A stretch of 64,000 nucleotides of DNA from contig RPFO01000059.1 in assembly GCA_009746045.1 (NCBI GenBank), forward strand, positions 1,805,716 through 1,869,715. The letters run 5' to 3'. The notes under the pieces are model-generated. The model ran no database searches, had not been told where the DNA came from, and saw nothing but the letters and a program-made list of their open reading frames with translations. The DNA comes from Mesostigma viride (lineage: Eukaryota > Streptophyta > Mesostigmatophyceae > Mesostigmatales > Mesostigmataceae). Within the stretch, counting starts at the first letter, position 1. Each line of letters begins with the position of its first letter. A program made the position numbers and the translations under genes. Shown here one piece after another: positions 16,541 through 60,905 of the stretch.

Positions 16541-16542
16541 GT

Positions 16543-20186: not shown

Positions 20187-20187
20187 C

Positions 20188-21274: not shown

Positions 21275-21401
21275 AGGATACTATTACTAGGAAGCAATAC
21301 TAGGTTCTATATCTATAGATCCATAGCACGTGGTTGCTCTTTCTCTCTCTCTTCTTCCTGGGGAGGTGATGCCTGCTGTGTAAGGTACCGGTACGAGCAC
21401 C

Positions 21402-27777: not shown

Positions 27778-27802
27778 CAGACCACAGCCGGTAGGGTGTA
27801 GG

Positions 27803-28620
27803 GTGAGGGTGGTGCGTGAGCCAGGTATTTGGTACGCGTCGACTAACGCCCTGACATCTTGTGTGTGGGCTGTGCAGGGGGACGCCGCGGAGGCGCTTCC
27901 CAGAGACCAGACTCCCGTCGGCGCCGTGGAGGCTGCTGACGCAGGATTCCGGGTTGCAGATGGGGAGTCCAGTGAGGGGGATTTGGTCGACATGGATATA
28001 CCCGACGATCCGGAGGTCCCAGAACCGGAAGTGGGGGTAAGGACGCAGATAGCTCGTGGAGAGCCTGCGGTCCGAAGGGATGCACCAGGGGCCGGGGGCT
28101 CGAGAGACGGTGGCGGACAGATGGGGCCCTCCTCTAGTCGCGAGCGCCGGCAAGAAACCTCGTCAAGGCCGGGAGCACCGGACGCGCGTACGTTGGAGCT
28201 GGTAAAGGAGCTGCACGAGGAGACGTTCAATCCCCGGGTGTTCTTGCGAGACTACGGTCGGGAGGGGGAAGCCCTGGTGGAACGACGACGGCGTCGTCGT
28301 AACCAAATGTCGTCGCATCTCCGCGCTGATTCTATCATGGCGCGGGTCGGCCCTGTGCAGATGGAGACTTTTCGGGGGTTCGTGCGGCGCAACGTGAGGT
28401 TCCGGATCGAGACCCGCACGGCTGCGCGCAACGGTGTGGTGGTCGGGACCGACTGGGAAACACATGAGCGGGAATGTGCCTGTCACGGGTGCATGAACAC
28501 GCTGGAAGCGGGTCTGGCATTCCCACGGCTCCTTCTCCTCTTACTTCCACCCCCAGTGCGGAAGCTGCTGGGATACCACTTCCCCCGGTATCTTCCACCA
28601 GAGGGGGCGCTACAGGGTGA
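27803..28620 (+). CDS. GypC ORF4 (post-pol, env position), N-terminal part
   Basis: Begins 26 bp after pol. Acidic, disordered first third (EGDLVDMDIPDDPEVPEPE), then a basic patch VERRRRRRNQMSS and a Cys/His cluster HERECACHGC, followed by a hydrophobic run RLLLLLLPPPVRKLLGYHF. GypA and GypB ORF4 have a comparable W...H...C...GC segment followed by IEAVL/IDAVL helices. Homology passes to the next frame near 28615. No convincing viral glycoprotein signal. Function unknown; env-like position alone does not make it an envelope. Confidence 0.6.
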
Positions 28621-30365: not shown

Positions 30366-32366
30366 AGTAAATAGTTCAGTTTCGGGATGGATAGCGGAGT
30401 CCAATCCCCAAAGTTTTGGCTACTACGTCAGTGTCCAAAAGCCTGCAAAAAGTCCTAAATTTAGGACGCTGGGGAATGCGTATTTAATCATGTAAACAGT
30501 AACATTTGACCCTGCCATTTGTGCCACTGAGAAATAATATAGTTTTTTAATTTCTATCAAAGACCTAGGTTCAAATAACGACGTTTAGTACCAAAACTGG
30601 CCCTGCCCCATGGGAGACCTCGAACGAAAAAAATGGCCCAAAATTGAAACTAGGACTTTTTAGGACCACCATGTATATCACCCATCACCACGCCACCCAC
30701 ACAGTCCCATGAGCTTCTTACCAATCCTCAGGGCCCCACGGGACCCTACGCGGCCTTGGGGAGGTGGGGCAGCGTATAACAAGGCCGTACCGTGCTGTGG
30801 CTGCACGTATATATACGCGTGCCTAACGGTGTCACAGATGGGGCAGATCATGCAATATAAGGTTGTATGGTTGCTGAGGTTGCCTGGCTTGAACATGACC
30901 CACCCCTTACGGCAAACTCTCTCCAAGCATATACCATAGCTTGTTTAATGTCACGGGCATGCTGGCCACCACCCAGGAAGGAGAGGACACCACATTTGTA
31001 TGGCAACTTACACAGGATAGCAGCCAGATGAAGTTGTTAAAGGGCACTGTCCAACATGCCACACTTTGCATGCATTCTAGGGGGGGGGGGAGCTGTAAAA
31101 GCATCACATATAGGCAGCATAAGAACAGCTAGAACAACTGCAAGCAATGGGCCCATGGCTGATAATGAACGCAACCGTAACATAGCTGGGAAGCATGCGT
31201 AACTTGGCAGCAGCGAACAAGGAAGCTTGCGACGATAGAAGGTACATGCCGTAAACCAACTACGTAAGCCATGTACATGCACAGAAACTGTCCTGTCTTT
31301 CAGGCATAGCCGGCTGACACTTACTGCTACGACTACGCTACCCCTTACACCTAACCACAGAGAGAACCCGGCACAAACCTGCTTGTTACGTCGCCACGTC
31401 CAGGTGGATGCATTAAGAATCGCGGATATCCGCAGCCAGCCAGCTTTCCGGCACAAGAACGCAGCCAAACTTACAAAATGGTTCGAAAGTAACGTAAGAC
31501 ACGCCGGAGCATTGTTCTAGGCCCAAGAGAGATCAAAAGACAAGTCCTCTCACGTGCGCTCGCTACCCAGCCTTGACGTTCTGTAAAATGGTCGACAGTA
31601 AACTTCGGGCAAGAACACCCAGGCCCGGGCGCTCCCTTGTCAGATATACCGTTTCCAAACTCTATACTACGATTAAAATCAAGCGCAAAAACTGCCTGGC
31701 CTGCTGCGGGCAACGTTTCCTCACGCACTGACATGTTTGTGCTCAAAATCGACCGTCCGGGCGCAGGCGATCTGTGACCTACTCATGTTGAGCAGCCGTG
31801 CTACACATGCAAACGCAAATAATTTCGTAACCAAATTAAGACCCTTTAAGCATAAGTACCAAGCTTTCGTTCTTGCTACTGGGCGCCCAAAACGATAAGC
31901 TCACGTGAAAATGCCGCCCATATTTGTCAGGTCGCCATATCCGCCGCACATCATTCCCGCACCCACTTTTTTGGCCCAAAATCTCTGTATTTTTGGTCGA
32001 GGTACGTACATTCCCGCGCATCTACCCGGTACCCGGTACGGAATCCGGGTACGATGTACCAGTATCACGGGTAGAGTACATCTTGGAGGTCACGGTCCAC
32101 TAGGGGTATGGACCATATAGTGACCCCCCCTGCCCAGTACCTCAGTTATAGTGACCTTAGGACTTTTTAGGACGAAGTCCTAAATTTAGGACGGCCGGCT
32201 GATTAACATCAGGGTTGGGCATGTGTATCAACCTCTAGAGGAACTGGCATTACTGATCTGCGGGTGAACCGAGGTTGGGACATAGTACTCTTATAGTAGT
32301 CTTGTTTTGTGATCCTATTCTACCTTTGTACGGTAGGGACTACCGACCCCCGTGGGGGGGGAGGAG
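30366..32366 (+). other. GypC long 3' UTR, possible insertion, and polypurine tract
   Basis: About 2 kb without a supported gene. The 18 bp palindrome AGTCCTAAATTTAGGACG occurs at 30451-30468 and 32176-32193 and may mark the ends of a 1.7 kb inserted element. No matching duplication found. A G8 polypurine tract (cgtggggggggaggag) ends at 32366 against the LTR. A minus-strand frame at 31037-31468 is probably chance. Confidence 0.5.
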
Positions 32367-32949
32367 TGTTACGTCCCGGCCCTTTAGGACGGACGTAACA
32401 ATGGAATAAATTACTAAGGCCTTGTGGCCGTTGTACTAAGTTTTAGGGACGTTGGTTATTGTGTGAATTGGACTAGTTATCTTGGTCCTAGGTTGCCCTT
32501 TTAGGAGCCGGTGCTGTGGCGCCGCGCCAGTTCTGAGTCTGTCCGAAGTACTAGACGTGGATCCTGTAGTTGAGGGTCGATGTCGGCCCGGATCCTACGT
32601 GGAATGATTGGCTTGGATTGTTCCAGGGAAATTGGCGTGTATCTGCGCCGCAATCAACCTAGGTTAAATTGGTCCGAGGACGAGAGTCTCGTCCTCTTGG
32701 TTTGATGAATGATAAGTGCGAATACGCCTACACATTGAACCCGGGGCAATTATCCATTTGTATTTGGTGTTGCTAGCCATTATAAGTGTGTACTAATTAG
32801 CTTGGCATCAAGCCGTGATGCCAGATATCTCACGACTCACGTCGTGAAGCGCAACCTACTTTAGGCTACCTTGAATTATTCCTAATTCCGGCAAGAAGGG
32901 TCTTTCGCTACGTAGCTCAGGCTAGGTGTGTCTGGGCTGGGACGTAACA
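32367..32949 (+). repeat. GypC 3' LTR
   Basis: 583 bp copy of the 5' LTR, followed by the target duplication CTCGG at 32950-32954. Confidence 0.9.
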
Positions 32950-33185
32950 CTCGGTTCCACCACCACGCCGGGTGGTGTAGGGTTAGCCAGCACCAAGCCT
33001 GGTGGGAGGTTCCCCTAACTGCCTGGAACAGAGTCCTTGCCGGGGGGGGACGGCACTGGGCAGGACACACAGAGTAAACAAATCAGTACCAAGGACCAAG
33101 AACGACCAATCAACTGGCCAGAATCTGAGGGCGACTCTATATACCGGAGGGACAACACCCTCAGGTCGGGCCTAGAGCCCTCTGT
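32950..33185 (-). other. GypA 3' UTR, second part
   Basis: Continues the UTR interrupted by GypC. It matches GypB 43999-44220 (accaccacgcc, ggttcccctaactgcctgga). Confidence 0.7.
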
Positions 33186-43281: not shown

Positions 43282-43858
43282 TGTTACGCCGCGGATATCT
43301 ACCTCCACCTCTACCTCTAATGGGCCTGATACTACCTAAACTGGTCAGGCCTCCTCTACTTAACCCTCTGGCGAAAGACGAACGTGACGGAGCTGATCTC
43401 AATGCATTAACGTAAGTGTTACTATAATACGCCATACAACCATTTATCAAAACCCGTTTACTCCAGGAATAGAGGAAGGAAACACAACTACACTGCCGTG
43501 ACCCAAGCCTAAATGTGTCAATTCACTTAACACACGCCGAGTGCACACACAAGGGGTAGAACGCGCATAAATGGTCACCAACGGTCCAACACGTGCGCTC
43601 GGGCCGACATGGCCCTCGCCTACAGATGCACGCTGGTCCACTAAATCTACTGATGCACGCTGGTCCACTACATTCTGCCACAGGATCAGGACCACTAATA
43701 AAGTACGCGGCGCGGCGCCCAACGGCACCCAATGTACCACAGTACTGTTACGAGGACAATAATGTCCCGGTAGGAGCCTAAACGTAAACCTAGGGACAAC
43801 CGAGGCAAAAGACCTAATTTACGTCCGTAACTACAACGAATTGTTACGCGACGTAACA
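43282..43858 (-). repeat. GypB 3' LTR
   Basis: 577 bp with TG...CA ends. A C8 run (minus-strand polypurine tract) abuts it at 43859. Confidence 0.9.
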
Positions 43859-44224
43859 CCTCCCCCCCCACAAAGGTAGGGAGCCCTCTCCCTACGTACA
43901 GGGAGGAAAACAAGGGGTAGGAAACCTAATGCACCCAGCACACACTAACACAGTCAGCAGCCATCCAAGATACAAGGCACCAATAGTTCACACGGTCTCC
44001 ACCACCACGCCTGGAGGTGTAGGGTTAGCCAGCACCAAGCCTGGTGGTAGGTTCCCCTAACTGCCTGGAACGGAGTCCTTGCCGGGGGGAACGGCACTGG
44101 GCAGGACACACAGAGTAAACCAATCAGCCAAGGACCAAGAACGACCAGTCAACTGGCCAGAACATGAGGGCGACTCTACATACCGGAGGGACAACACCCT
44201 CAGGTCGGGCCTAAGGCCCTCTAT
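43859..44224 (-). other. GypB polypurine tract and 3' UTR
   Basis: Minus-strand tgtggggggggagg at the LTR edge, then UTR similar to that of GypA. No gene. Confidence 0.7.
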
Positions 44225-46503
44225 CTAATGGCCATCCGTCTGGTAGGTACCACGGGAGGCCAGCAGGACATCCAGGTAGGCCTGGTAATGGGCCACATCC
44301 TCAACATTGTCATGCCTATCTACGGTGAGGAAAACATCGGCCCACACGCCGTCAGGAAAAAGGCCCAGAAAGGCCCAGTAATACCTATGCTGAGTAAGAA
44401 CGACCTGGCCCCGGGCCCAGTCCAGGAAACCGCAGGCAAAGAGGCGTAGGAAAGGCTCTACCGCGATCAGGCAGAGAGCCCGAAGGAGCAGGCGATGATA
44501 CCGGATCCGAGGGCGCATACCCGTCGGGAAAAACAGATCTACCAGGGGCTCCACGTTGGACGGCCACAACCGGATGTGCCACCGACGCGTACACTGGCGC
44601 GACCCGAATGTCTCTAGGTAGTCGCTGGCCCGAGGAGGAGGGTGACCGCGGGAGTCTAGACCCTGGCCCGGGAGGGGCGCCGGACGCCGGGCATCCCACT
44701 CGAGGATGGGCTGGAGGACCGTGGTGTACGTAACACCCGGCACCGCAGGAAACTCTACCGTAAGGGCATCCGAAGCCATAATGCCCAGAGGCGGAGGGTA
44801 AGCCCACTGGAACCCACCGTAGGTGTCCAAGTCGTTGTGGCGCCTAGCCCAGCGATACAGAACGCGCCGAACCAGGATCTCACCCTGGAACACAGGATCA
44901 GCTAAAATAACCATGTCGAAAGGAGGCCGATCAGTCTCAATGGGTAGGCCACGATCCCGAGGCGCCCGACACACCTGGGAAAACCCGTAGGACATGGGCG
45001 AGATGGCAAGCTCGGCGGAGGCGCGCGGCAGGTCACACTGGCGGCAGGCGAGTGCGGACATACCACATCCAGGCACGGGCGTGTCGCGCGACTCCGGCGT
45101 CGCATGCACCACAGAAGGAGCCCTGTCCCGATCACCCTGGGACAACTCCCGGAGGGAGTCGGAAGCGCGGGTAGCGCGAGGATCCTGGCCGGTGGACCGA
45201 ACAACCGCAGCCAAGGACAGAGAGGCCGAAGGGGCAGGGGCCGAAGCAGGGGCAGGAGCCGACACCGACGCAGGTGACACTGGTACAGCAGACGGTCGCG
45301 CCGGACCCGAAGCCAGGGGGCCGTGACGGACCCGCCACCGAAGCTGGCGCGCCGGTCTCGGTGGCCGGTGCACCCTCAGGCCACATGTTAAAAATGGGGC
45401 CCGTAGGGACAGGCAGTCCTGCATAAGATTGACTACCATCCAGGCTCCAGTCAGGAACCGGAATCCTCTGCGGGGGACCACCCTCCCAAAGCCTGGGCAG
45501 TCCGCTAGTGTCGCCAAAGAAGCCCCGCGACGGCTGCGACTGAGCTGGTGGAGGCTCGGAAGCAGCGACAGCGGGCGCGGTCACAGGGGCAGGGGACTCG
45601 CGCGTAGGCGCAGGTACAGCGGTCACAGGCGCAGAGGCAGCAGGAGTCGCAGCAGCCGCCGGAACCACAGCGACCGCGGGCGCAGCGGGGGCGCGGGCGA
45701 AGCCGTAGTCGCCGGGGCAACAGAAGGGGTAGGAGGCGCGGATCCAGCTGGCGTAGCCGGGACCTGCGCCTGGGCCGCCAGGAAGGCCCCAAACGCCGTG
45801 GTCAGGGACTGGATCTGAGCCTGCATAGCCGAGACCGTCGCCGAAAGAGGATCAGGCAAACCCGAAGGGGTAGGCTCCACTGCAACACCCCGGGTCGACC
45901 GAGGGGACGACGGGACCGGAGAGGGAGGAACAGACGCCGAGGAGGCGGACGCAGCGCTCGAGGCAGAATAATCTGGAGTATAATGTACCTCGGCTGGGGC
46001 GCCCGAAGGGGCAGGACCATCAACCGCTAGTCCCGCCGCCTGATCAGCTATCTCCATGAATTCTACGGCCCGTAAAAGGTCGCAGGGGTTCTCATCTACC
46101 TCAGCATCACCCTCAGCCGGAAGCCAAGGAAACACCTCCCGTAGGCAGGTACGGCCCACAGGGGTAGAGAGGTAGGAGAACACACGGCAGCACCGGAGAA
46201 CCGCATCTATCTGTTCCAAGGCGGGACAGCGGAACCACACCCCAACAAACAGTGTCCGGCATCGTCGAACCCGTGCAGGACAAGCTGGTGCGGCTCATTA
46301 GGGGAAGGACCATACCACGTGACCCCGAAGAGGGCCGCCCTGACTAAGCTCGCATGTTGGGCCTGAAGGGCCGGCTGCACAACGCCACCCCGGTAACATG
46401 ATCGCGACACCCAGCGGCCCGGAAGGGCCTCGAAATACAGCTCAGGGTCCGGTAGGGGCAGGGACGGCAGCGGGCTCTCAGCCGGAGGGGTAGGCTCTGT
46501 CAT
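44225..46503 (-). pseudogene. GypB ORF4 (post-pol, env position), three frameshifts
   Basis: Same protein as GypA ORF4. The probable start at 46503 (MTEPTPP) is chosen by alignment with GypA. N-terminal blocks ALPGRWVSRSCYRGG and HGFDDAGHCLLGCG; after a shift near 46230, FRCPALEQIDAVL and FPWLPAEGDAEVDE; after a shift near 45680, an A/P/T-rich linker; after a shift near 45330, the long C-terminal frame with LPIETDRPPFDMVILADPVF, YRWARRHNDLDTYG, PAPLPGQGLDSRG, RLFACGFLDWARGQ and YWAFLGLFPDGVWADVFL. Conserved in spite of shifts. No named domain recognised. Confidence 0.65.
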
Positions 46504-46579
46504 GACGGCTGCGGAGGGGAGGGGACAACCAACCACCCGTCGACAGCAGACATAACATAAGAGAGGAGAAGGCCTACGA

Positions 46580-47880
46580 CTAGAGCTTGTGCAGGGTTTT
46601 ATATTCCTGCAGCAGGCGACTACACCCATCTAGCTCACTCTCCGTATACCAAACCTTATCTACTTCACTACGAGCATACATCCACTTCACTTTATACTGA
46701 CGCTGGGTACCGCGGCCCTTTTTGATATCTCGATGGGCCACGATGCTTTCTACTTCGTCTTCTACTTCCCCAGTGTCAGGATTATGCTCTAAAGGGGCAG
46801 GCGCTAACTCCCTGCCAGCGAACGTACTAGGGTGGTACAGTTTAAGCTGGCTCCTATGGAAGGTGTTTGAATGCGTTTGCCAAGAGGTAGGGATATCGAC
46901 TTTATACAAGAAATTTCCTACCCTAGACAACACATGGAAGGGTCCTAAGAAGGCAGGCCTAAGTTTGACCTTCAGTTCTGCTTCAAACTTATGAGCAAAA
47001 CGGCCAACACGGGGGCCTTCTACTAATACTAGATCTCCTACTTCTATCTCAGGTGCTCGTCTATCTAAGGAGGCACGCAACCTAGCAAGGTACTTAGCCT
47101 GAGCTTTTTGATACCCTGAGATCGCGTGGTCATGAGCAGTTTTCATTCTATCTAGTAAGGACTGTACACCTTCTACAGTATCTCGGGACACATCATCCTT
47201 GTCCCGTAGAGGACTAGCTAAGAGAGAGGTAGGGGTAAGGGGCTGTCTCCCAGTATCTAAGAAGAAGGGCGTATATCCATGCGCAGCTTGGGGACAATTG
47301 TTGAGGGAGAACTCTACCAAACATAAATAATCCTCCCAATCACTACCCGAGCCATTAACATAGTGCCTAAGCGCTTCTTCTACTACTCTATTAAGACGCT
47401 CTACTAAATGAGAGGAGGAGGAGTGGTAGGCAGTACCGTAGGTAACCTTGGTACCGATGGCAGCGAAAAACTGCTGCCAAAAATCTGAGGTAAATAATTT
47501 ATCCTTATCACTAATAAACTGCCTACTCAATCCATGATATCTATATACATTATTGAGGTATAGGCGTGCGCAATCACGTGCGGTGAGTTCTAAAGGACAC
47601 GGCACAAGATGGCACATACGAGTAAAACGATCTATGAACACAAGGATTTGGGCATTGCCCCTATCATTCTTTCTAAAAGGTCCTACAAAATCCATCATGA
47701 TAGAATCCCAAGGCATGATAGGGTCAGGCAAGGTCCTAGGTTCTGCTATCTGTCCTACATTATTGGGTTTCATTTCCTGGCAAGATTGACAAGTTCTAAC
47801 ATACTCATCCACATCCTTATAAAGGGAAGGCCAGTAATAAGAGCGGGCTACTAGGTCCCGTACCCGTTTACCACCCTGTG
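46580..47880 (-). CDS. GypB pol: integrase and chromodomain
   Basis: From the CC part of the zinc motif (CQSCQEMKP) through the catalytic core: IMMDFVGPFRKN (Asp), FISDKDKLFTS (Asp), SSSHLVERLNRVVEEAL (Glu). The module LRPAFLGPFHVLSRVG follows. The C-terminus DEVESIVAHRDIKKGRG, QYKVKWMYAR, LDGCSRLLQEYK is a chromodomain. The histidine half of the zinc motif is in the neighbouring frame: compared with GypA a single G is missing near 47879. Ends about 77 bp before ORF4 starts. Confidence 0.85.
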
Positions 47881-48170
47881 AGCAGCTAAGTCATGCAACT
47901 CAAAGAGCAAGGAGGAGCGACAGATAGGAGGGACATACAGGCGCCATTGAGGGGGAGAATCTGCTATCTGCACATATAAAAACCCACCTACAAATTTACA
48001 AGGGTGCTTGCCTAATTGTTGGGGATGTGCAGCAATGGCAGCTAATGCTTCCGGCTCAGTGGCCGTAAATCTACTAATAAGGCGTTCAAGATCAGAGGTA
48101 GGCATCGCTACAGAAGTATCCAGAACAGGTTTAAAGAGATCTCCTACCGCCTTGCCGAAGAGAAGGGGAG
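47851..48170 (-). pseudogene. GypB pol: RNase H-integrase linker
   Basis: Bridges two one-base shifts (near 48177 and 47879). Motifs TSDLERLISRFTATEPEAL, CKFVGGFLYVQIAD and CRSSLLFELHDLAAH match GypA in one continuous frame there. Confidence 0.75.
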
Positions 48171-48173
48171 GTC

Positions 48174-50597
48174 CTAGGGGACTACGTTTTCATAAGACTT
48201 TCCTGACCTAGTCGCTATATGGCTAAGCGGTATAGAAATTTTATTTTTCCCCTCCCCCCCCACCGAGGCCACAGGAAGGGCCTCACACGGGAGAGAGAGT
48301 CCTACGTGAGAAAGGAGATCAGGCATGCGAACAGCTGTATGAAAGAGGTAGGCATAGGAATCATCATCAGGTAGTTCACCATAAGGGGTTACACCCATAG
48401 TAGTAGGAACTAGAGTAGTATTGAGAACATCAAGGTCCTCGAAGAAGGAATAGTCTGCACGACGAGAGAGTGCATCTGGTACTATGTTATCTACACCCTT
48501 GACATACTGAAGTTTAAAAGGGGAAAACTGTGCTAAAAATTCCATCCAGCGCGCTTGCCGAGGGGTAAGGTTGGGTTGGGAGAGAAGATGGGTAAGGGGA
48601 CGATGATCCGTTTGGATAACTAACCTATAAGGATCTAGCTCACAGGGTTCATTCAGGCAGACATCAAATTGAGCACCTTTAAGGAAGTGCTGCCACGCGT
48701 GGCAACAATACACCACAGCTAAGAGTTCCTGCTGGTGGACGGGATAGTTACGCTCCGCAGGGAGCATTGTCCTAGAGATATACTCAATTGGCTGTAAGCC
48801 CTGACCCTGATCCTGGAGAAGGACACCACCTATAGCTACTTTACTAGCATCTGTAGCCACAACAAAGGGTTTAGTAGTATCCGGTAGGATGAGTACAGGA
48901 GGGGAAAGGAGTAGGGATTTTAGGCACTGAAAAGCAGACTGACACTCACTACTCCAAACAAAGGGGATATCCTTCTTTAATAAATGATTAATAGGGGCTG
49001 CTATAGTTGCGAAACGCGGGATAAAACGCCTATAGTAAGAAGCAATTCCTAGGAAACTACGTACACCTTTAACGTCGGTAGGAGTAGGCCATTCCTGAAT
49101 TGACTTAGTTTTATCCGGGTCGGTAGCGACCCCGGCATCTGACAGAACGTGCCCTAAAAATGGGACACTCCTACCCGAACGCACTTTAGCACGGCGCGCC
49201 CACAAAGAATTTTCAGCCATTATTTCTAATACTTTCTTTAAATCACGTAGGTGCGTTTCAAAATCAGGAGAGTAAATAAGAATATCATCTAAGTAAGCTT
49301 GAGCACAAGAACGGTCATGCTCAGATAAAGAAACAGAGGAGAAGGAGGGATCCTTTAGATCAGAGGACACCTGAGGAAGATGAGAATTTCCCATAACAGG
49401 TCTAAGCACTTCATTCATTAACATTTGAAAAGAGGCAGGCGAGTTACAGAGTCCCATAGCCGCTACTCTAAACTGGTAATGACCAAAAGGGGTAGCAAAG
49501 GCGGTTTTATGGCAATCCTCAGGAGCTATCCGCAACTGCCAAAAACCATCCGCACAATCCAGTACTGTGAAACAAGTGGAACCTTTAACCTTATTAAATA
49601 TATCATCAATACGAGGTAGAGGGTATTTAGATTTCACAGTAATATCATTCAACTTCCTATAATCAGTAACTAGGCGAAACTTGCCATTTGGCTTAGGAAC
49701 TAACAGGACACCAGCTGAGTAGGGGGAGTTACTAGGCTCTATCAATCCTGCTTCTAATAATGACACTAAAATCTGTTTTAGTTCCTTTAACTCGGTAGGG
49801 CCCATTCTATACATCGGAGAGTGCGTAGGAACTGCACCGTCCTTGATAACTACACGGTGTAAAACAGAACGAGGAGGAGGATAAGAAGGAGTCTTTTCTT
49901 CAAATACTTTTGAGGAATCTATCACAGCCATGTATCTTACTATTTCATTTTCAGTAAATCCTACTCCTATTGTATCCACTGTATTTACATCTATATCCAC
50001 ACTATTATTAGTGATAGGTATCTCTTGTACTTCTAACTGAAGGAACATACATAATAGGTATCCATTTTGCTTTAATTCAGAACGTAATTCGTCATTTGAC
50101 ATTAATACTTCAGGTATAGGTCTTACAGGAGGATCAACAGGTGTAGGAGGAGTAATATCTACCAAGGATAAATTTTCCAATCTATAATGACGTTCAGGTA
50201 CCCAGTAAGAGCTATCTGGAAACCAAATGACCATGGTATCATAATTAATAGTAATCTTATTATCCTGGTGCCAATCTAATCCTAGTAATACATCAGCGGT
50301 AGTGATAGGGCCTATAGTGGCCGTCAGGTTGACAGTACGTCCTTGTATAACCATGGGAAGGGACACCGTACCCGGGGAATGACTGGTGCGACCATCAGCA
50401 TAATGAACAGTAACGGGTTTGGTGTGAGGGGTAGGGACTAGTCCTAAACGTCTAACTAGGGCCTCGCTCACAAAGGAGCTAGCCGCACCGCTATCTACCA
50501 ACACAGAGACATTCAAGAGTTCATCAGCATGCAAGAAGGGGTCTACAACAGTGTGAGGGACGGTTAAACCACCATTCAAGAACATAAGAGGACGCAC
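48174..50597 (-). CDS. GypB pol: protease, reverse transcriptase, RNase H
   Basis: 807 codons. The frame is open from just after a TAA near 50660 and has no conserved Met; it can begin at GTG 50597 or ATG 50585, or be reached by recoding from gag. Protease SVLVDSGAASSFVSEALV and DVLLGLDWHQD. RT MYRMGPTELKELKQIL, DCADGFWQLRIAPED, AYLDDILIYSPDF (YLDD), and the full thumb VPFLGHVLSDAGVATDPDK. RNase H FVVATDASKVAIGG, QQELLAVVYCCHAW, IQTDHRPLTHLL, NIVPDALSRRAD. The frame ends at a premature TAG caused by one missing base near 48177, compared with GypA. Confidence 0.9.
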   Translation of the reverse strand: MRPLMFLNGGLTVPHTVVDPFLHADELLNVSVLVDSGAASSFVSEALVRRLGLVPTPHTKPVTVHYADGRTSHSPGTVSLPMVIQGRTVNLTATIGPITTADVLLGLDWHQDNKITINYDTMVIWFPDSSYWVPERHYRLENLSLVDITPPTPVDPPVRPIPEVLMSNDELRSELKQNGYLLCMFLQLEVQEIPITNNSVDIDVNTVDTIGVGFTENEIVRYMAVIDSSKVFEEKTPSYPPPRSVLHRVVIKDGAVPTHSPMYRMGPTELKELKQILVSLLEAGLIEPSNSPYSAGVLLVPKPNGKFRLVTDYRKLNDITVKSKYPLPRIDDIFNKVKGSTCFTVLDCADGFWQLRIAPEDCHKTAFATPFGHYQFRVAAMGLCNSPASFQMLMNEVLRPVMGNSHLPQVSSDLKDPSFSSVSLSEHDRSCAQAYLDDILIYSPDFETHLRDLKKVLEIMAENSLWARRAKVRSGRSVPFLGHVLSDAGVATDPDKTKSIQEWPTPTDVKGVRSFLGIASYYRRFIPRFATIAAPINHLLKKDIPFVWSSECQSAFQCLKSLLLSPPVLILPDTTKPFVVATDASKVAIGGVLLQDQGQGLQPIEYISRTMLPAERNYPVHQQELLAVVYCCHAWQHFLKGAQFDVCLNEPCELDPYRLVIQTDHRPLTHLLSQPNLTPRQARWMEFLAQFSPFKLQYVKGVDNIVPDALSRRADYSFFEDLDVLNTTLVPTTMGVTPYGELPDDDSYAYLFHTAVRMPDLLSHVGLSLPCEALPVASVGGEGKNKISIPLSHIATRSGKSYENVVP

Positions 50598-50709
50598 ACG
50601 TAGTGGTAGGGAAGATTCAGCTCCTACAGAGGTTATAAAAACAGGCAGGCAAAAATTTTATCTGGGGTACTATCTAAGGACCTGTCCAGGTTACCCCCGG
50701 CTGACAGGC

Positions 50710-51744
50710 CTACTGTTCCCCCTCCCCCCCCAAATCCATAGGAACTAACCCCGAAGAAGACCCTGGCGAAAAAGCCACTGCTGGAGGGTCACGAGGGAGC
50801 GAAGAGGGTGCGGGAGCCTGATTATCATAGGGGAACCCTGGGGATCCTGTCTGCACAGCATTCAGCCTACTAGGGGTAGCTGAAGGAATGCGTCCTGAAG
50901 TAGGACGAATAGGAGCACGCTGAGGGGTACGAGGAGGGCGAGCGTCGGGATGAGGGGGAGCACCCGAAAGGAACTTGGGGCACTCACGTTTAAGATGACC
51001 TACTTCCTTACAATGATAGCATGTGATATGAGAGACATCAAGGGCTGAAAGGTCAGTAACACAGATATCTAATTCTTCTACATAGGAGTTCTCCTCCTCA
51101 GGGGTAAGGATAATATTATTAATACGGGAACGGGTAGGAAGAGAAGGGGTGGTGAAGAAATCTGCTACACGCAAGAGATGCTGGCGCACATGCTTGAGGG
51201 GCAGATCAGTAAAACGGTAGGCAGAGAACTGGCGCTTGACTTCACGTAATAAGGGTCTACTGAGGCCTTGGAGGAAGCGAGCACGTACTTCTGCACCCGA
51301 CAAATCCCTAATTCGTACCATCTGAGCATCAAACTCTTTCATATACTCCTTAAATGATTTAGTACCCTGCTGCAAGGTACCAAAGGCTAATCTATCCTGC
51401 CAATCTGAATCAGGAGGGACTAAATGGTTCTCTAAACGCTTAAACAATTCTGCTACAGAGTTAGGGTAGGCATGAGAGGCCAAAGACTCACACTGAATGA
51501 GGTTAGCAAGCTCAGGAGTAATACAGGTTGTGAGATAGTGAGGAACTAATACAGCATCAGAAAGACGCCATCTATTATGATTCTGCCACGACTCCGTGTT
51601 CTGGGTAAGCAACATAATAAAGGTGAAAAACTGTTGAGGGGTAGACTTGACATCCAGCTTGGGAAGGTTAGCAAAGAGGGGAAGAGCAGGGGGCTTAGGG
51701 GGATTAGAAGAGTCAGTTTTTCCCATAGGGCCACTATCTTCCAC
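50710..51744 (-). CDS. GypB gag, capsid and nucleocapsid part
   Basis: 344 codons. Capsid pattern: FANLPKLDVKSTPQQFFTFI, LTTCITPELANLIQCESLAS, FGTLQQGTKSFKEYMKEFDA, RARFLQGLSRPLLREVKRQF. One CCHC knuckle CYHCKEVGHLKRECP. It ends GGEGEQ-TAG. The preceding N-terminal part is one frame away, with a shift near 51800. It forms particles and packages RNA. Confidence 0.85.
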   Translation of the reverse strand: MEDSGPMGKTDSSNPPKPPALPLFANLPKLDVKSTPQQFFTFIMLLTQNTESWQNHNRWRLSDAVLVPHYLTTCITPELANLIQCESLASHAYPNSVAELFKRLENHLVPPDSDWQDRLAFGTLQQGTKSFKEYMKEFDAQMVRIRDLSGAEVRARFLQGLSRPLLREVKRQFSAYRFTDLPLKHVRQHLLRVADFFTTPSLPTRSRINNIILTPEEENSYVEELDICVTDLSALDVSHITCYHCKEVGHLKRECPKFLSGAPPHPDARPPRTPQRAPIRPTSGRIPSATPSRLNAVQTGSPGFPYDNQAPAPSSLPRDPPAVAFSPGSSSGLVPMDLGGEGEQ

Positions 51745-51746
51745 TG

Positions 51747-52448
51747 CTACATAAGCGGGATAGAAGGAAGGAAGAGGAAAAGTCTTGGGTAGGGGTCTAG
51801 AGGGGCCACCGTTTCAGGCTGGTGCCCATAAGAGAAGGGGACAGTATATTGCTCACGAAGAGAGGAATAGGCAAAATGATCATAATTTCTGTCATCTAAG
51901 GGCATGGTGCTGAAATCACTATTAACTTCTAAATCAGCCACACGGGTAGGGACCTGGGCTGCCTCATAGGCCGTCTCAGGGTAGGACCAGGAAGCAGGTG
52001 GGTAAAAGGGAACTGCACTAGGGCGCCCAGAAGGACCGACAGGGGCAGAGGCACGACCCGTGTTAAGAGCAGGCATGGAAGGAACAGGGTGGGAAGGAGG
52101 CCTAAAAACATTGTTAGTTAGTGAGGACCTGCTGGAGGGTTGAGCCAAGGTTGCAGGAGGGGCAGGGGCCTGGTTCAGGGTAAGGGAAGGGTCATCACTA
52201 AATCTGACTTGCATACGTTGACGTTGTTCATAGGTAGGAGGGGTAAGTGAGGGACGACGGCGACCATCAGCAAGAGGAGAAGGAGGTGAGGCACGAAGAT
52301 TACCTTGAGGAGTGAGATGGTGCACCGTTTCAAGTGAGTCCCGTCGGTTACCACGATTGTTGTTATGGTTGTTATTATTATTATTATTATTACTCATAGT
52401 AGGAGTATTGGTAGGTATAGGCGACATGTTACCACCCACTGGATCCAT
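51747..52448 (-). CDS. GypB gag, N-terminal part with Asn tract
   Basis: Starts MDPVGGNMSPIPTN, then a run of Asn, then a Pro/Ser-rich disordered part ending DRNYDHFAYSSLREQYTVPF. GypA reads through the equivalent junction in a single frame, so a one-base shift near 51800 breaks this copy. Confidence 0.75.
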   Translation of the reverse strand: MDPVGGNMSPIPTNTPTMSNNNNNNNNHNNNRGNRRDSLETVHHLTPQGNLRASPPSPLADGRRRPSLTPPTYEQRQRMQVRFSDDPSLTLNQAPAPPATLAQPSSRSSLTNNVFRPPSHPVPSMPALNTGRASAPVGPSGRPSAVPFYPPASWSYPETAYEAAQVPTRVADLEVNSDFSTMPLDDRNYDHFAYSSLREQYTVPFSYGHQPETVAPLDPYPRLFLFLPSIPLM

Positions 52449-52571
52449 TTTTGTTTAAGTAAATGATCAAAAATCTAACTGAAAGCAACAAGGATAAAGG
52501 ACAAGGCCTAATATAAGGCAAGGAAAGAAAAGGAAAAGATTTTAATGGCTTAAAAGAAGGAACAATTTAAA

Positions 52572-52964
52572 TCAATCCTTTTTAACAACAGTAATGGATA
52601 GGGAACCGAATTCTAAGGTGAGAGGAGTATCTAAGCTAGATGAGGATGCAGCCCTCTTAGGGGGAGACGAAGGAGGGGTAGCAAAATCTAGAGCTTCTAC
52701 AGGAGGGCGACCATGAGGAGTAGAACGTACGTGTAGGCCTAGATCTGATACGCTATGGTCTATAAGGAATTGTTGAGCTTCCTCGAAGGTAACAAATTTC
52801 TTATACCTAATTACATTATATGTACGGTTTTGCACTATCTTCCTAGCATCTGACCAAGAGAGGAAAATGGCTGACCATTGAGGGGTAATAACTACGTAAT
52901 ACTTAGCTAAACTATTATCACTAGATGAATGGGAAGGCGCAGTAAAAACACGACGTTGACTCAT
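52572..52964 (-). CDS. GypB ORF1: viroplasmin / RNase H1 N-terminal-like protein
   Basis: 130 codons, upstream of gag on the same strand. AKYYVVITPQWSAIFLSWSD, then KIVQNRTYNVIRYKKFVTF and EEAQQFLIDHS, follow the Y.V...(I)F.SW...(20)YKkF.t.eeA pattern of viroplasmin and the RNase H1 hybrid-binding domain. The C-terminus is S/P-rich and ends LTLEFGSLSITVVKKD, similar to the end of GypC ORF1. It is intact, unlike the GypA copy. Confidence 0.65.
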   Translation of the reverse strand: MSQRRVFTAPSHSSSDNSLAKYYVVITPQWSAIFLSWSDARKIVQNRTYNVIRYKKFVTFEEAQQFLIDHSVSDLGLHVRSTPHGRPPVEALDFATPPSSPPKRAASSSSLDTPLTLEFGSLSITVVKKD

Positions 52965-53483
52965 GATAACTCACCTGGCGTGTCTTGTGATGTCAAGCTA
53001 GACGAGGTAGGGGTAGGCGACTTAGCTTGACGATCTGGATCACCGAAAGAAGAAGGAGGGCGGGAGTTTCCAGCTCTCGTCCTAAGTCAGCGGCCGGATA
53101 TCCAGCGCTCGTCCTAACACAGCGCCCCGTAACTCTGCGGGTGCGGCCGTCTAATAAAGCAGCAGCACAAGGAAAAAGGTGTAGGTACTGCGACGCTAAT
53201 CGTCTCCGAACAGTAATACTCCCCTATCTAAGACAGGAAACAACCGTAAGCAGGAAAACAAGGCGAAGGACAGGCTAACTACGAAAGGATTTATCCGCTG
53301 TGAGCAGGTCTAGCTTCTAGGTAGAGCGTGTCCCGAAACGGGCAGCACGACTCTCCTAGCTTGAAGGCGACCCGCCCATTACCTATCAAGGAAGTGTCGA
53401 CTTCTTGTTCCTGGACGCGGAAGGGGTCTTGAAAAGGTGTATGTGGCAAGGGATAGTCGTCTCGTTCACTACCTACTGAAGTT
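52965..53483 (-). other. GypB leader
   Basis: Untranslated leader between primer site and ORF1; no gene. It shares stretches with the GypA leader (ttatccgctgtgagcaggtc, gcgtgtcccg). Confidence 0.6.
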
Positions 53484-53495
53484 CCTCCGGAACCA
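53484..53495 (-). promoter_or_regulatory. GypB primer-binding site
   Basis: Minus strand TGGTTCCGGAGG, one base from the LTR, expected to pair with a tRNA 3' end. Confidence 0.6.
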
Positions 53496-53496
53496 T

Positions 53497-54069
53497 TGTT
53501 ACGCCGCGGATATCTACCTCCACCTCTACCTCTAATGGGCCTGATACTACCTAAACTGGTCAGGCCTCCTCTACTTAACCCTCTGGCGAAAGACGAACGT
53601 GACGGAGCTGATCTCAATGCATTAACGTAAGTGTTACTATAATACGCCATACAACCATTTATCAAAACCCGTTTACTCCAGGAATAGAGGAAGGAAACAC
53701 AACTACACTGCCGTGACCCAAGCCTAAATGTGTCAATTCACTTAACACACGCCGAGTGCACACACAAGGGGTAGAACGCGCATAAATGGTCACCAACGGT
53801 CCAACACGCTCGGGCCGACATGGCCCTCGCCTACAGATGCACGCTGGTCCACTAAATCTACTGATGCACGCTGGTCCACTACATTCTGCCACAGGATCAG
53901 GACCACTAATAAAGTACGCGGCGCGGCGCCCAACGGCACCCAATGTACCACAGTACTGTTACGAGGACAATAATGTCCCGGTAGGAGCCTAAACGTAAAC
54001 CTAGGGACAACCGAGGCAAAAGACCTAATTTACGTCCGTAACTACAACGAATTGTTACGCGACGTAACA
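53497..54069 (-). repeat. GypB 5' LTR
   Basis: 573 bp. Lacks the 4 bp GTGC-type segment present in 43282-43858. Followed by TCAGC. Confidence 0.9.
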
Positions 54070-54298
54070 TCAGCGTTAGGATATTTCTGGTTTTGCCGTT
54101 TTCCATTTTGACGGTAGGCTTGATAAGCATGGTCGGCGGGTTGTGACCCGTAATTGTTTCTTCCCACCCATCCCACCCTTGGGGGGCTCTTGCTCCTGCA
54201 TGCGAGGGAGACGAGATGACTACTTAAACCTGCCTTTGGCAGGGGCTCTACTCATTGTTTTCAATCAAATGCTGGTTTTCTTGGGATCTCAAGTGTCA

Positions 54299-56280: not shown

Positions 56281-56783
56281 GTACGTACCTTGTTTAGGTG
56301 ACTCTGAGGGACTAGACTTTACAGTAGGTGTAGGCTCGGCTGTCGTTGCCGGGTCTGAAAGCAGAATCCAGAAAGTAGACGAGGAAGCCAGCACCGGTTT
56401 AATTGTATGTGAGCAGGCGGCTCAAGGCTCTGCACGAGAAATCATCTAAACAAACGCAGCAGCAAGCACGGAAAAGAGGTGGAGTCTTCCGAGACGCTAT
56501 TCGTCTCGCTAACCGGCACAACGGAACCGGCCAACCCACTATCTAACGTCAAACAGCACCCAGCAAGGAAATGCACACACAGAAGGAAGAGGAAAAGAAC
56601 TATCTACGTGAGGAGTTATCCGCTTTGAGCAGGTCTAACTTCTAAGCAGGGCGTGTCCCGGATCGGGCAGCACTACCCCCCTAGCTTGCAGGCGACCCGC
56701 CCCTTACCTGTCAAGAGGATGTCTTCTTCTGTGCCCTGGCCGCGGAAGGCCTCTGGCGTATAGTGCTGCAAGGGAGCTTCGTC
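56281..56783 (-). other. GypA leader
   Basis: Leader similar to GypB (ttatccgctttgagcaggtc). Interrupted by PAL2 after GCGTC. No gene. Confidence 0.6.
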
Positions 56784-56788
56784 GCGTC

Positions 56789-57670
56789 AGTTACGTTAAA
56801 TAGTGACGGAACCTTTTGCCGCCTGAGGCAAATCGGTCCGTAACACTATTTTGCCCGGAATAACCACTTCCGAGCACCCAAGTTAATTCGGCCGAATTAA
56901 CTTGGGTGCTCGGAAGTGGTTATTCCGGGCAAAATAGTGTTACGGACCGATTTGCCTCAGGCGGCAAAAGGTTCCGTCACTATTTAACGTAACTAAAACC
57001 TGGCCTCGTGGAGGGGGGACGAAGAGCCCGAGACATCCGCCTAGGCCGCTGAGCACGCACCACTAAATGCGCCGGAGCTGCCTCAGTGAGGATTCGAACC
57101 CCTGACCTCCAAGGTGCACGGGTTTTAGTTACGTTAAATAGTGACGGAACCTTTTGCCGCCTGAGGCAAATCGGTCCGTAACACTATTTTGCCCGGAATA
57201 ACCACTTCCGAGCACCCAAGTTAATTCGGCCGAATTAACTTGGGTGCTCGGAAGTGGTTATTCCGGGCAAAATAGTGTTACGGACCGATTTGCCTCAGGC
57301 GGCAAAAGGTTCCGTCACTATTTAACGTAACTAAAACCCGTGCACCTTGGAGGTCAGGGGTTCGAATCCTCACTGAGGCAGCTCCGGCGCATTTAGTGGT
57401 GCGTGCTCAGCGGCCTAGGCGGATGTCTCGGGCTCTTCGTCCCCCCTCCACGAGGCCAGGTTTTAGTTACGTTAAATAGTGACGGAACCTTTTGCCGCCT
57501 GAGGCAAATCGGTCCGTAACACTATTTTGCCCGGAATAACCACTTCCGAGCACCCAAGTTAATTCGGCCGAATTAACTTGGGTGCTCGGAAGTGGTTATT
57601 CCGGGCAAAATAGTGTTACGGACCGATTTGCCTCAGGCGGCAAAAGGTTCCGTCACTATTTAACGTAACT
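56789..57670. mobile_element. PAL2: 882 bp palindromic composite P-S-P-S'-P
   Basis: Three copies of a 206 bp palindrome P (56789-56994, 57127-57332, 57465-57670; ends AGTTACGTTAAATAGTGACG) alternate with two inverted 132 bp spacers (56995-57126 and 57333-57464). The whole 882 bp is therefore one palindrome centred near 57229/57230. The 5 bp duplication GCGTC flanks it (56784-56788, 57671-57675), so the composite inserted as one unit. No ORF. Spacers contain a tRNA B-box-like motif. Confidence 0.85.
56995..57126 (-). repeat. PAL2 spacer S with tRNA 3'-half-like sequence
   Basis: On the minus strand, directly after P, it reads aaaacccgtgcaccttggag then gtcaggggttcgaatcctca. The hairpin ACCT-TGG-AGGT resembles a class II variable arm and GGTTCGAATCC the B box. 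The inverse copy is 57333-57464. Confidence 0.5.
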
Positions 57671-57683
57671 GCGTCTACCTAAA

Positions 57684-57695
57684 CCTCCGATACCA
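57684..57695 (-). promoter_or_regulatory. GypA primer-binding site
   Basis: Minus strand TGGTATCGGAGG one base from the LTR end; close to the initiator-Met site TGGTATCAGAGC. Confidence 0.65.
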
Positions 57696-57696
57696 T

Positions 57697-58269
57697 TGTT
57701 ACGCCCAGGCTCTACTCGATCCCAAACCCCGCGCCTAACCTTACCTAAACTAGTGAGGGTACCTAGCGATGAGGAGCTGTATTGGCTATAAGACCTAGGA
57801 CGCGACGACTCTGCTCTCAATGCATTCCGATACATGCGGTTACTGTACGCCATATACCAAATAATGCCGGGACACTACGAAGTAAACACTGGTAAATTCA
57901 CGACCCAAAACGATGTATTACAATTCCATAATACACGCCGAGTGCGATTCACGAAGGACAACCGCTGCATAAATGATCGCCGACATGCGTGTATGCTCGG
58001 GCCGACACCGACCCTCGCCTACAGGACCAACGCATGTCCACAAGGTTCAAACGGAGGATAAAGGACCACTACTAAAGTACGCAGCGCGGCGCGACTGCAC
58101 CAAGCCACCATACTGTACGATTGCCACGTCACAAGGCCCGGTACCAACCGGCCAAAAAGGTCCTAACTACACGTAAGCTTAAGAAAGTCAACGGACTGTC
58201 TCGAAATGGCTGAGGCACAAAGGACCTAATTTACGTCCGTAACAACAACAAAAGTTACGCGACGTAACA
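57697..58269 (-). repeat. GypA 5' LTR
   Basis: 573 bp, one base different from 18886-19458 (T/C near 19378/58190). Followed by TTTGC. Confidence 0.9.
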
Positions 58270-59454
58270 TTTGCAAGATATTTACTGCCAAAGTTGGACA
58301 AAAGACGATCATTTTCAGGCAAGGGAAATCCCCTTAGTAGTTTACCCCTGCAGGGAGGGTTCTAAAAAATTATTCTGGGGTTGGAAAATGTCAATAGATA
58401 GTGCCACCATGCTTTCCTTGGGTCAGACCGCACGGATAGCCCATCTGACCTATATAATGCGCTCACTTACGTGTGTGGGTTACGCGCGCGTAAGCAGCCA
58501 TCCATGAAATGCCACACACTTATGCATTGTATACAGCCACATAGGACTGTGAAAAGTGCTGGGAAACAAAGAAGTGCTAAACCAGCACTAACGGAATGGC
58601 ATCCTCCAAAGAAACACCACAAACTGAGCAGATTTGTTTGGGGCTAATAGCACTCATACAGCAGGCATGGAAACCTGCTGCAAGAGGCACTGATACACTC
58701 GTGTAAAATGGATGTATAAACGACAGATTCCCGTGCAAACGACATGCAAACACGTTGCCGTACCTGGCTTGATCACGACCTTTCCGGGTTCTGCTGGCCG
58801 GGACCCTCATATCTCACACTGGCTAATGCTTTCCAGGCATAGGCCGCCTTAGCCGCATAATGCATGCATCCGACATGATTACCAGGTTGATGTTCTGTGC
58901 AAAGATGACCTATAAACGCATCCGAATTCACAGGGACGCTGCTGCGGATGTCCCGTACCAAAACTGGGTGCTCGGGCTGGCGCAGACTGCCGGGCCATAA
59001 GAAGAAAATCGAAATATGGCATGCCATTACTCATCTGGTACTGACGACCAAGAAAGCAGTAATGTCCTACCTGTATTTTACCAATGCTATACATCTGGCC
59101 ACCCCTGACCTACGAAAATCACGCATCATCATTCTGAGCAACATTCTGAACCATTACAAGCCGCGAGATGCAAAATTTCCTTGATAACGGCACGCTAGCA
59201 GCCATATCTCGTTACGCGCGCGCGCGAGTGAAAATTTCCCGCCAAAGTCACGTGATACTGTCTCAATACACGTTGTATTTACCAGGCTATGGCGAATATT
59301 ACCCCCAAACCTATGCATCACCTTCGTCCTTAAGTGTTCCCAGACCCACCGGACCACTGACATCCGTCACAGGTGGCGCGGCGCTCCGGGAATTGAGCGC
59401 CGCGCCACCGGGGGTCAAACAGGGCGATATATCGCCCTGTTTCCGGACTATGGG
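58270..59454. other. pB right part
   Basis: No transposase frame that I can support. A minus-strand ICSVCGVSLE near 58610 recalls the Cys pairs at the end of piggyBac transposases, but this is too short to trust. The right end carries two strong hairpins: 14 bp arms at 59372-59385/59396-59409, and a 24 bp perfect palindrome at 59418-59441. Confidence 0.5.
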
Positions 59455-59571
59455 TTAAGTTCACGTGAACGTGGCGCGGAATCGATACCGGCGAGTGGTT
59501 TTCGCCGGATAAATAGTGACGGACCTAATTGCCCAAGTGGCAAAAAGGTTCCGTCACTATTTATAATAACT
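59455..59571. repeat. PAL1 central palindrome, right arm
   Basis: TTAA (59455-59458) then gttcacgtgaacgtggcgcg and the remaining arm; completes 10750-10850. Confidence 0.7.
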
Positions 59572-59768
59572 AAGACCTCGTAAGTCGGGGGTTCGAATCC
59601 CTGTGGTGACACGGGTATTTCCGAATACCGGAAGGAATTGATACCAGAAGGCCAAACGAAAGTGCCAGAAGGAAAAAATGCCCGGTTGGAATATCGTTAA
59701 GGCGAGATTCGGTACTGCAGTAGGCATCAGCGGTACGATAGATATCGGCCCCCACACTACGACGTTTT
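59572..59768 (+). repeat. PAL1 spacer S' with tRNA T-arm-like motif
   Basis: aagacctcgtaagtcggggg then ttcgaatccctg; inverse of 10552-10749. Confidence 0.5.
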
Positions 59769-59983
59769 AGTTATTATAAATAGTGACGGAACCTTTTTGC
59801 CACTTGGGCAATTAGGTCCGTCACTATTTATCCGGCGAAAACCACTCGCCGGTATCAATTCCGCGCCACGTTCACGTGAACTTAACGCGGAATAGATACC
59901 GGCGAGTGGTTTTCTCCGGATAAATAGTGACGGACCTAATCATGCCACTTGGCAAAAAGGTTCCGTCACTATTTATAATAACT
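59769..59983. repeat. PAL1 right outer palindrome
   Basis: About 215 bp, AGTTATTATAAATAG to CTATTTATAATAACT. Within each arm a second inverted pair (AAATAGTGACGG / CCGTCACTATTT) gives nested stems. Confidence 0.75.
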
Positions 59984-60905
59984 CAGGGGTCTGGCCAGGA
60001 CTTACCTGGGGATTACTTCCAGCCGGAACGTGATGATCAGGGATGACGTCATGACCAACTGGCAAGGTTGTCACATCAGGAGTTACTGCCTCTGCTTCAG
60101 CACCCCTTAGACGTACATATGACCACGACAGACGGTGCACATTCTGGGGAGGATCCTCCATCTTCACCCAGCACTTGTGCCCAGCTAGTTCCACCCTGGT
60201 CACTACTCCAGGGTGCCAGCTACCACGCTTGTCTGCAAGCTTGGGCTCTTTCCACACAATTACCCTTTGGCCAACAACAGGTTTCAGAACACTCCAGCCC
60301 TTGTCTTTCTGCCTCAACTTGGCAAACTTGAACATAAGGCTATCTTTCCAGGCTTGCTCAACCTCTGACAGTAGGGAGCTCCCGAAGATGCAATGATAAT
60401 GGAGTCACAGGGACCTCTCCAACATACATGGATGCCCTGACATTCAACCCGTCCTCAACTGACCACAACCAGGCGGTCTTGATAATAGCTGGAACCAATC
60501 TGGGAATCTTCTTCTCCGTCAGCAGAATAGTCTTGAGTTCTCTGATTGTTCTCTCCACCACTCCTTGACTGCCATGGGACTCCCTGTGTACAACAAATAA
60601 CTCAGGGAGGTCTTCATGCCCCATGCAGCACTCAAATTCTAAATCACACTGCAGCTGGATTACTGGTTTCATTCTGGATCTGATAGCCTGGAGCCCAGCC
60701 ACCAAACATGGCTTAGACTTGTCTTGCAACAGCTCCAGCACCTTGTACTTGGTGTATCTGTCAACACCAATTACCAACAAAATCAGTTTCTATTTCTTGG
60801 ATATCACATTGCACATATCCAGGCTGCAACACAGGTTGTCTGACACATGAGACTTCTTAGGCTTGGGAGCAACCAGCCTACAGGAACAAGCCTCAGCAAT
60901 TACCT
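59984..60905 (-). pseudogene. Cop2 integrase
   Basis: Several frames joined by shifts: CSCRLVAPKPKKSH (end of zinc part), VQCDIQEIE (first Asp), VIGVDRYTKYKVLELL, LQCDLEFE (second Asp), ESHGSQGVVERTIRELK (Glu), then after a shift near 60380 FKFAKLRQKDKGWSVL and KRGSWHPGVVTRVELAG (C-terminal part). The His half of the zinc motif is deleted. It ends at PAL1; the protease-like domain that should follow is absent. Clearly the family of Cop1 and Cop3. Confidence 0.75.

Follow-up and report, generated by a model that had tools for sequence, protein, structure and literature searches.

The element described here is a non-autonomous mobile element within a 64,000-nucleotide stretch of Mesostigma viride DNA, hereafter the window (Table 1). 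All 882 bases of 56789–57670 match the reverse complement of the same stretch, and the architecture is P-S-P-S'-P, in which P is a loop-free 206-bp palindrome composed of two 103-bp arms and S is 132 bp long. Being palindromic, P is both a direct and an inverted terminal repeat. The window element (W) contains only P and S, without a unique middle domain, and carries the end motif AGTTANNNTAAAYAGTG; its termini are AGTTA...TAACT, not TG...CA. The initial annotation of this DNA, which described three 206-bp palindromes separated by inverted 132-bp spacers, an 882-bp overall palindrome and a flanking 5-bp duplication, GCGTC, is borne out in each of these respects: self-complementarity is complete, and the duplication is exact on both sides. 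A simple hairpin MITE with a single P is rejected for this copy, and no solo P was found in the window or in 24 loci fetched from the genome. An origin of the central palindrome, P2, as a later insertion into an older S-S' palindrome was rejected because the flanking GGTTTT and AAAACC form an inverted rather than a direct pair. Matches of microRNA models to P (mir-3145 and others) reflect hairpin shape only; they lie below the gathering scores, and mir-3145 matches both strands.

The flanks of the element have a diverged paralogue elsewhere in the window that lacks the element and thus approximates an empty site. At the corresponding position, the paralogue reads ...CGTCTCGTTCACTACCTA..., and the joined flanks read ...CGTCGCGTC/GCGTCTACCTA... 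(the slash marks the junction). This alignment appears compatible with a 5-bp duplication, weakly so because the paralogue is diverged. The paralogue takes in one LTR of the pair at 43282–43858 and 53497–54069, and the element is therefore embedded in an old sequence related to this LTR element.

Table 1. Positions in the window of the element, its parts and other repeats
Feature	Position	Strand	Remarks
Left target-site duplication, GCGTC	56784–56788	.	exact copy of 57671–57675
P1, left terminal perfect palindrome	56789–56994	.	206 bp; ends AGTTACG...CGTAACT
S, leftward-pointing	56995–57126	-	132 bp
P2, central palindrome	57127–57332	.	dyad of whole element; centre GG/CC at 57229/57230
S, rightward-pointing	57333–57464	+	132 bp; reference orientation
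P3, right terminal palindrome	57465–57670	.	
Right target-site duplication, GCGTC	57671–57675	.	exact copy of 56784–56788
tRNA-like stretch over P2/S junction	57292–57380	+	Rfam tRNA model, full length, 18.3 bits, below gathering score 29
Mirror of tRNA-like stretch	57079–57167	-	identical by symmetry; follows from palindromy
B-box-like GGTTCGAATCC	57359–57369	+	assigned from sequence; mirror at 57090–57100 (-)
TTTT, outer end of S, directly before terminal P	57461–57464	+	possible Pol III stop (putative function)
Diverged paralogue of flanks, element-free (approximate empty site)	53133–54086	+	alignment to joined flanks
Copia-like LTR element	10996–18852		LTRs 99.5% identical (young); starts AGTTAACG, ends CAACT
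LTR pair	43282–54069		ends like extended inverted repeats TGTTACG...CGTAACA; 5-bp duplication TCAGC
LTR pair	19599–32956		ends like extended inverted repeats TGTTACG...CGTAACA
Second-family copies	59449–59986; 10409–10860		boundaries approximate
Short hairpins adjoining a second-family copy	59366–59444		GGCGATATATCGCC; GGCGCGGCGCTC...GAGCGCCGCGCC; weak matches to unrelated bacterial RNA families

Block insertion and the orientation of array ends

A search of the 439.9-Mb, 2243-contig genome with S as the query, scoring 40 of 1173 first-look candidates, returned at least 42 matches at at least 24 other sites (the window copy was not among the matches listed). Among PDB entries, the rbcL product of this genome is most similar to green-type Rubisco, headed by 1gk8, an entry from Chlamydomonas. 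Twenty-four sites were fetched, one of which (L049) contains two elements, giving a sample of 26 elements with W included; the family is probably larger than this, because only 40 of the 1173 candidates were scored. The P/S grammar is common to all 24 fetched sites, with a usual pitch of 338 bp. Arrays range from 1 to 7 S units, in keeping with the monomers and higher multimers that the initial annotation had predicted. Read as strings of S orientations, they are - (L037, L038), -+ (W, L032, L035, L036, L040, L041, L043, L045, L050, L052, L054 and the second element of L049), ++ (L051), -++ (L034, L044, L047), --+ (L048 and the first element of L049), --++ (L039), -+++ (L046), -+-+ (L033, L053), --+-+ (L042) and --+-+++ (L031). 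Shortened S variants with several deletions and substitutions occur in L033, L041 and L042, only in arrays that also hold ordinary S; one deletion-bearing variant is common to L033 and L042, and a related variant is present in L041. At four loci (L032, L034, L037, L046), long minisatellites with in-frame CTHTYTHRARKG-like peptide repeats are found, and CTTGTC-type minisatellite arrays are present at L035 and L044. The element end patterns had no match in a viral contig set, nor did 56789–57332 match any phage in a search for distant relatives. Among the titles and opening lines of abstracts returned by searches of an open-access library, no description of this element was found.

Exact 5-bp duplications flank 22 of the 26 elements, in arrays of 1, 2, 3, 4, 5 and 7 units, and comprise 21 different pentamers, GGCGG occurring twice. 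All 22 elements in which both terminal P's are intact carry one, whatever their length, with the termini AGTTA...TAACT at the P edge. Since exact duplication is independent of array length, whole arrays insert as single blocks, which supports for the family the one-unit insertion claimed earlier for this locus. The four elements without a duplication are L032, which has a run of N at its left end, and L039, L048 and L051, in which the left P is damaged by loss of much or all of one arm. Duplications in repetitive sequence are worth less: the match extends to 7 bases in L034 and to 11 in L035, and L038 is located within a tandem repeat.

Perfect palindromes are a familiar hazard of assembly and sequencing, and a fold-back artefact is one candidate explanation. 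It is scarcely credible for 26 elements of varied lengths and variants with 22 exact duplications of 21 sequences, and arrays with differing variants among their units answer it in part. Moreover, if the host is strain NIES-296, the read N50 of 11.2 kb given in the available part of the assembly report (PMC6947507) far exceeds the length of the arrays.

The outer units of the arrays follow a rule of orientation. In 23 of the 24 multi-unit arrays, the leftmost visible S points '-' and the rightmost '+' (binomial probability 2.6e-13 at 1/4 per array), a tally that includes L032, with its left end unread, and L039 and L048, with damaged left P's. The rule is the same whichever strand is read. Its sole exception among multi-unit arrays, L051 (++), has a damaged left end. 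The lone units L037 and L038 carry exact duplications and necessarily have one inward end each.

Beyond block insertion and this end rule, we infer the mechanism. The best explanation, which we hold tentatively at somewhat under even chances, is that the family is non-autonomous and mobile, with the inverted dimer P-S-P-S'-P as its moving unit, kept symmetric by hairpin copying. Presumably linear double-stranded DNA would be integrated by an integrase or transposase that would be supplied in trans. If this enzyme needs the 3' end of S in front of P, the inverted dimer would be the smallest unit to carry everything required, and single P-S-P copies would be deletion products or poor substrates.

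Mirror symmetry and irregular joints

Arms of P were compared through the positions at which each departs from the majority arm. Within a P, one arm is the same as the other in 44 of 48 terminal P's, 26 of them non-consensus (shuffled pairing gives a mean of 8.5 and a maximum of 17), in 17 of 24 central -P+ palindromes (shuffle mean 5.4, maximum 12) and in 6 of 17 other internal P's (mean 1.4, maximum 6). P's differ between elements: all six arms of W carry C18A and all six arms of L054 carry G15A, variants that are also present in some other elements. Mirror differences over whole elements number 0 in L035, L040 and W, 1 in L045, L054 and the second element of L049, 3 in L050 and 5 in L052. 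The second element of L049 differs from L035 at 19 positions and from its own mirror image at one. Values of 23 to 31 are found in L036, L041 and L043, the last of which has a deletion, and the 158.5 of L032 refers to an element cut by a gap. With the slippage-prone C109 deletion set aside, S pairs across a -P+ centre have non-consensus variants in common in 6 of 13 informative cases, versus 0 of 11 for other neighbours (Fisher p 0.013). For far arms, agreement is found in 6 of 19 mirror pairs versus 1 of 12 for other neighbours, a weak difference (Fisher p 0.14). Element-wide symmetry is thus common, not universal, because variants are unshared in the other 7 of the 13 informative pairs, the far-arm test is weak and three elements (L036, L041 and L043) are highly asymmetric. 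A mirror pair is thus often a unit of descent, with frequent recombinants.

In the preferred mechanism, hairpin intermediates, either snap-back or cruciform, would let one arm or half template the copying or correction of the other, so that P arms would stay identical and mirror halves would share variants. The hairpin or snap-back intermediates suggested in the initial annotation are consistent with, rather than demonstrated by, the mirror-image sharing of variants. Its head-to-head dimers are recognizable in the inverted S pairs, but directly repeated S units are present too, and many arrays are chimeras of lineages.

Chimerism extends to the array ends. Of the 22 exactly duplicated elements, 8 (L036, L041, L042, L044, L046, L047, L050, L052) carry unlike arms at their two outer ends, one to seven changes apart, and multimers were therefore probably joined before insertion. 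This is the simplest reading of the mixed lineages; the chimeric ends could instead stem from conversion after insertion. In the preferred mechanism, P's of different copies would recombine or be end-joined before integration, often at their centres, to give longer, chimeric arrays.

These data also bear on a more conventional origin, that of a foldback- or MITE-type DNA transposon moved by a terminal-inverted-repeat transposase that makes 5-bp duplications, its symmetry due to ordinary gene conversion and its units added by unequal exchange after insertion, without hairpin replication. The long inverted terminal arms contain tandem sub-repeats in variable number, for example in --++, -+++ and -++, and outward tandem units in both halves (--++, -+++) resemble the arms of the non-coding foldback element Tetris of Drosophila virilis, as these are portrayed in the available part of its description (PMC4079207). 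Hybrid P's within arrays fit exchange between P's. In contrast, post-insertion crossing-over between sites would break the duplications that enclose the eight elements with arms of different lineages, whereas conversion would not; W lacks a unique middle domain such as the same text assigns to Tetris, and the Tetris duplications are given there as 8–10 bp, compared with 5 bp here. We regard this origin as rather unlikely, if serious.

The P/S grammar is broken at nine joints (L031, L034, L039 twice, L043, L048 twice, L049 and L051). On one side, eight of the nine lie no more than about 5 bp from the P centre, GG/CC, a placement with a chance probability of 1.1e-11 for a single side, or by hand calculation about 3e-9 when both sides of a joint are counted, and in L034, L048 and L049 a P centre is fused exactly to a P/S boundary. 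Breakage at palindrome tips combined with cutting at P/S boundaries, also at internal P's, would explain these joints. The breaks at P centres may represent either hairpin opening before integration or later damage.

Breaks that look like opened hairpins are likewise expected of an integrated hairpin-ended replicon of dumbbell or rolling-hairpin type, with parvovirus-like logic, in which P would be a replicated telomere and the arrays captured concatemers. The mostly identical arms of terminal P's, the identity of several mirror halves and the joining of a centre-to-centre fragment of about 338 bp in L048 are in line with such a replicon. In addition, the P's that flank a mirror pair agree with each other, and the central P differs, in the outer pair of L031, the inner pair of L042, L043, L046 and the first pair of L053, as a dumbbell would give. 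Nevertheless, flanking P's differ in L036, L041, L050 and L052, the points of integration are the ends of P, marked by exact 5-bp duplications, and not the hairpin tips, strict -+-+ alternation is seen in just 2 of 11 arrays of more than two units (L033 and L053), and there is no replication protein candidate; we regard this origin as quite improbable.

A further alternative, judged unlikely, combines hairpin replication with integration. A nuclear element would multiply as hairpin-ended linear DNA with the P-S half as template, and snap-back at the P centre would make the inverted dimer and rewrite all arms to one sequence. Free copies would then recombine to concatemers, and a finished concatemer would be inserted, with its 5-bp duplication, by a borrowed Copia-type integrase. 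If true, DNA hairpin replication would be coupled to a retrotransposon integrase.

Candidate promoter and integrase donor

The Rfam tRNA model spans the P2/S junction at an E-value of 0.19, a figure that refers to all 4227 Rfam families in 221 bases, and it also fits 59553–59611, in a second palindrome-spacer family, with 17.4 bits (E 0.39), below the threshold of 29. Divided per family, as for a single prior hypothesis, both E-values fall below 1e-4 by our own arithmetic. A wider Rfam search of 56700–60100 (E-value limit 10) did not include the match at 57292–57380 among those listed. ARAGORN finds no tRNA in the window, nor any in P/S combinations with introns allowed, and the junction is therefore not called a tRNA gene. 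Both S types contain GGTTCGAATCC near P, 26 bases away in the main family and 18 in the second, and TTTT against the next P; the GGTTCGAATCC at 57359–57369 is B-box-like. Based on these features, we infer a putative tRNA-derived Pol III promoter with its 5' half in P and its 3' half in S, from which transcription would run outward from the centre. In the preferred mechanism, each P/S junction would hold a promoter from which Pol III would make a short RNA that crosses S and ends at the outer TTTT.

Among possible sources of the integrase, the Copia-like element in the window ranks first, although we think this role less likely than not. Its reading frames contain, in Copia order, matches to rve (E 0.015) and RVT_2 (E 8e-7) that stay below the Pfam cut-off. 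The flanking repeat is AATAT/AATAC, matching at 4 of 5 bases and thus not exact, and no primer-binding site was recognized by eye after the LTR. AGTT...AACT ends are also present in parts of two other Copia-like copies, at L036 and L037. LTRs usually terminate in TG...CA, and the AGTT...AACT ends in common are unusual because of this. Beyond AGTTA, P matches the Copia-like LTR loosely, and 0.3% of random 30-mers from the window score at least as well. TGTTACG, which resembles P after the first base, stands at or beside the start of the other two close LTR pairs of the window. The Copia link is accordingly held low, because the longer similarity is slight and the TGTTACG ends also resemble P; the Gypsy-type LTR elements with ends TGTTACG...CGTAACA constitute a weaker alternative partner. 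The autonomous relative anticipated in the initial annotation has a partial counterpart here: the Copia-like element has AGTTA.../...CAACT ends, and no autonomous relative with the full AGTTA...AAATAGTGACGG end was found in the window or the fetched loci, where no such end lies outside the known arrays. A test for Polinton/Maverick polymerase B (PF03175) gave 0 matches, as it did in all 14 control genomes.

A Copia-like partner in the same window also raises the idea that the P-sharing arrays are LTR-LTR recombinants mobilised by it, in the manner of a Helenus TRIM. The 5-bp duplication, the 206-bp repeats around a 132-bp spacer, the repeat common to adjacent units, the tRNA-like A/B-box region and the AGTT...AACT ends of the Copia-like element would all suit such an origin. 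We consider it improbable, given that S occurs in both directions between P's and that flipping of S through palindromic P's predicts common inward ends, whereas 23 of 24 multi-unit arrays point outward. Furthermore, inspection by eye revealed neither a primer-binding site nor a polypurine tract in the parts of S that border P (AAAACCCGTGCACC and CCAGGTTTT), nor any likeness between these stretches and the one that follows the Copia-like LTR. The tRNA-like unit lies over P/S rather than in the repeat, the TTTT might terminate transcription short of the following P, and P begins with AG and ends with CT.

Relation to known elements and a second family

Judged by their descriptions, the closest known systems are foldback elements, Helenus TRIMs and the (M1-M2)n-M1 arrays of pithoviruses; none fits fully. 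Foldback elements also include FB and Galileo. Unlike in foldback elements, what separates the repeats here is a perfect palindrome of the same kind as the ends, and a putative tRNA-like promoter is present. As with Tetris, the copies are modular and rearranged and the partner is unknown, according to the available text on that element (PMC4079207).

The part of the account of Helenus/TRIMp3 that is available (PMC10886601) presents small, non-coding elements of fungi and plants with tRNA-derived A and B boxes and 5-bp duplications, similar in size, lack of coding sequence and duplication length to the family described here, where such boxes are putative, and proposes a Copia partner for fungal Helenus. 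There, the tRNA promoter lies inside the LTR, whereas here the tRNA-like unit is split over P and S; P is palindromic and lacks the orientation of an LTR, the spacers occur in both orientations and the ends are AG...CT. Cassandra TRIM arrays likewise consist of short elements bearing Pol III promoters in a repeat-internal-repeat order, although they are described, in the available portion of the report, as tandem, with ordinary LTRs, and 5S-derived, and no mirror-image arrangement is apparent in that portion (PMC7215508).

Pithovirus arrays, as outlined in the available part of their description, alternate, have the same palindrome at both ends, show local homogenisation and are MITE-like without a sure transposase (PMC10664404). 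In that outline, M1 and M2 are both palindromic with a putative TA duplication, as opposed to a directional S and an exact 5-bp duplication here, and the host is a giant virus there and a nuclear alga here. MITE multimers, cited in the same text as 11% of rice MITEs, resemble the family in that short inverted-repeat elements occur as multimers; they are presented there as MITEs transposing side by side, unlike the arrays here, in which adjoining units share one P within a single duplication.

Long perfect palindromes are normally unstable. In this family, palindromes form the body of a mobile element, their symmetry apparently renewed between mutations and their ends under an orientation rule. 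The family may preserve, legible in the sequence itself, a natural record of copying through hairpins and of the building of concatemers ahead of integration, and may suit studies of the copying and movement of hairpin DNA. It is also relevant to the idea that small, non-coding, tRNA-like Pol III elements ride on Copia-type integrases, and it makes palindrome repair, TRIM origin and foldback origin testable on a single family.

The second palindrome-spacer family in the window has a similar outer end, AGTTATTATAAATAGTGACGG, with AGTTATTACAAATAGTGACGG at one end, and a palindrome core other than that of the main family; the spacer of its first copy is 197 bp long. In each of its copies, one end lies close to a palindrome centre and borders CCGGACTATGGGTTAA there.
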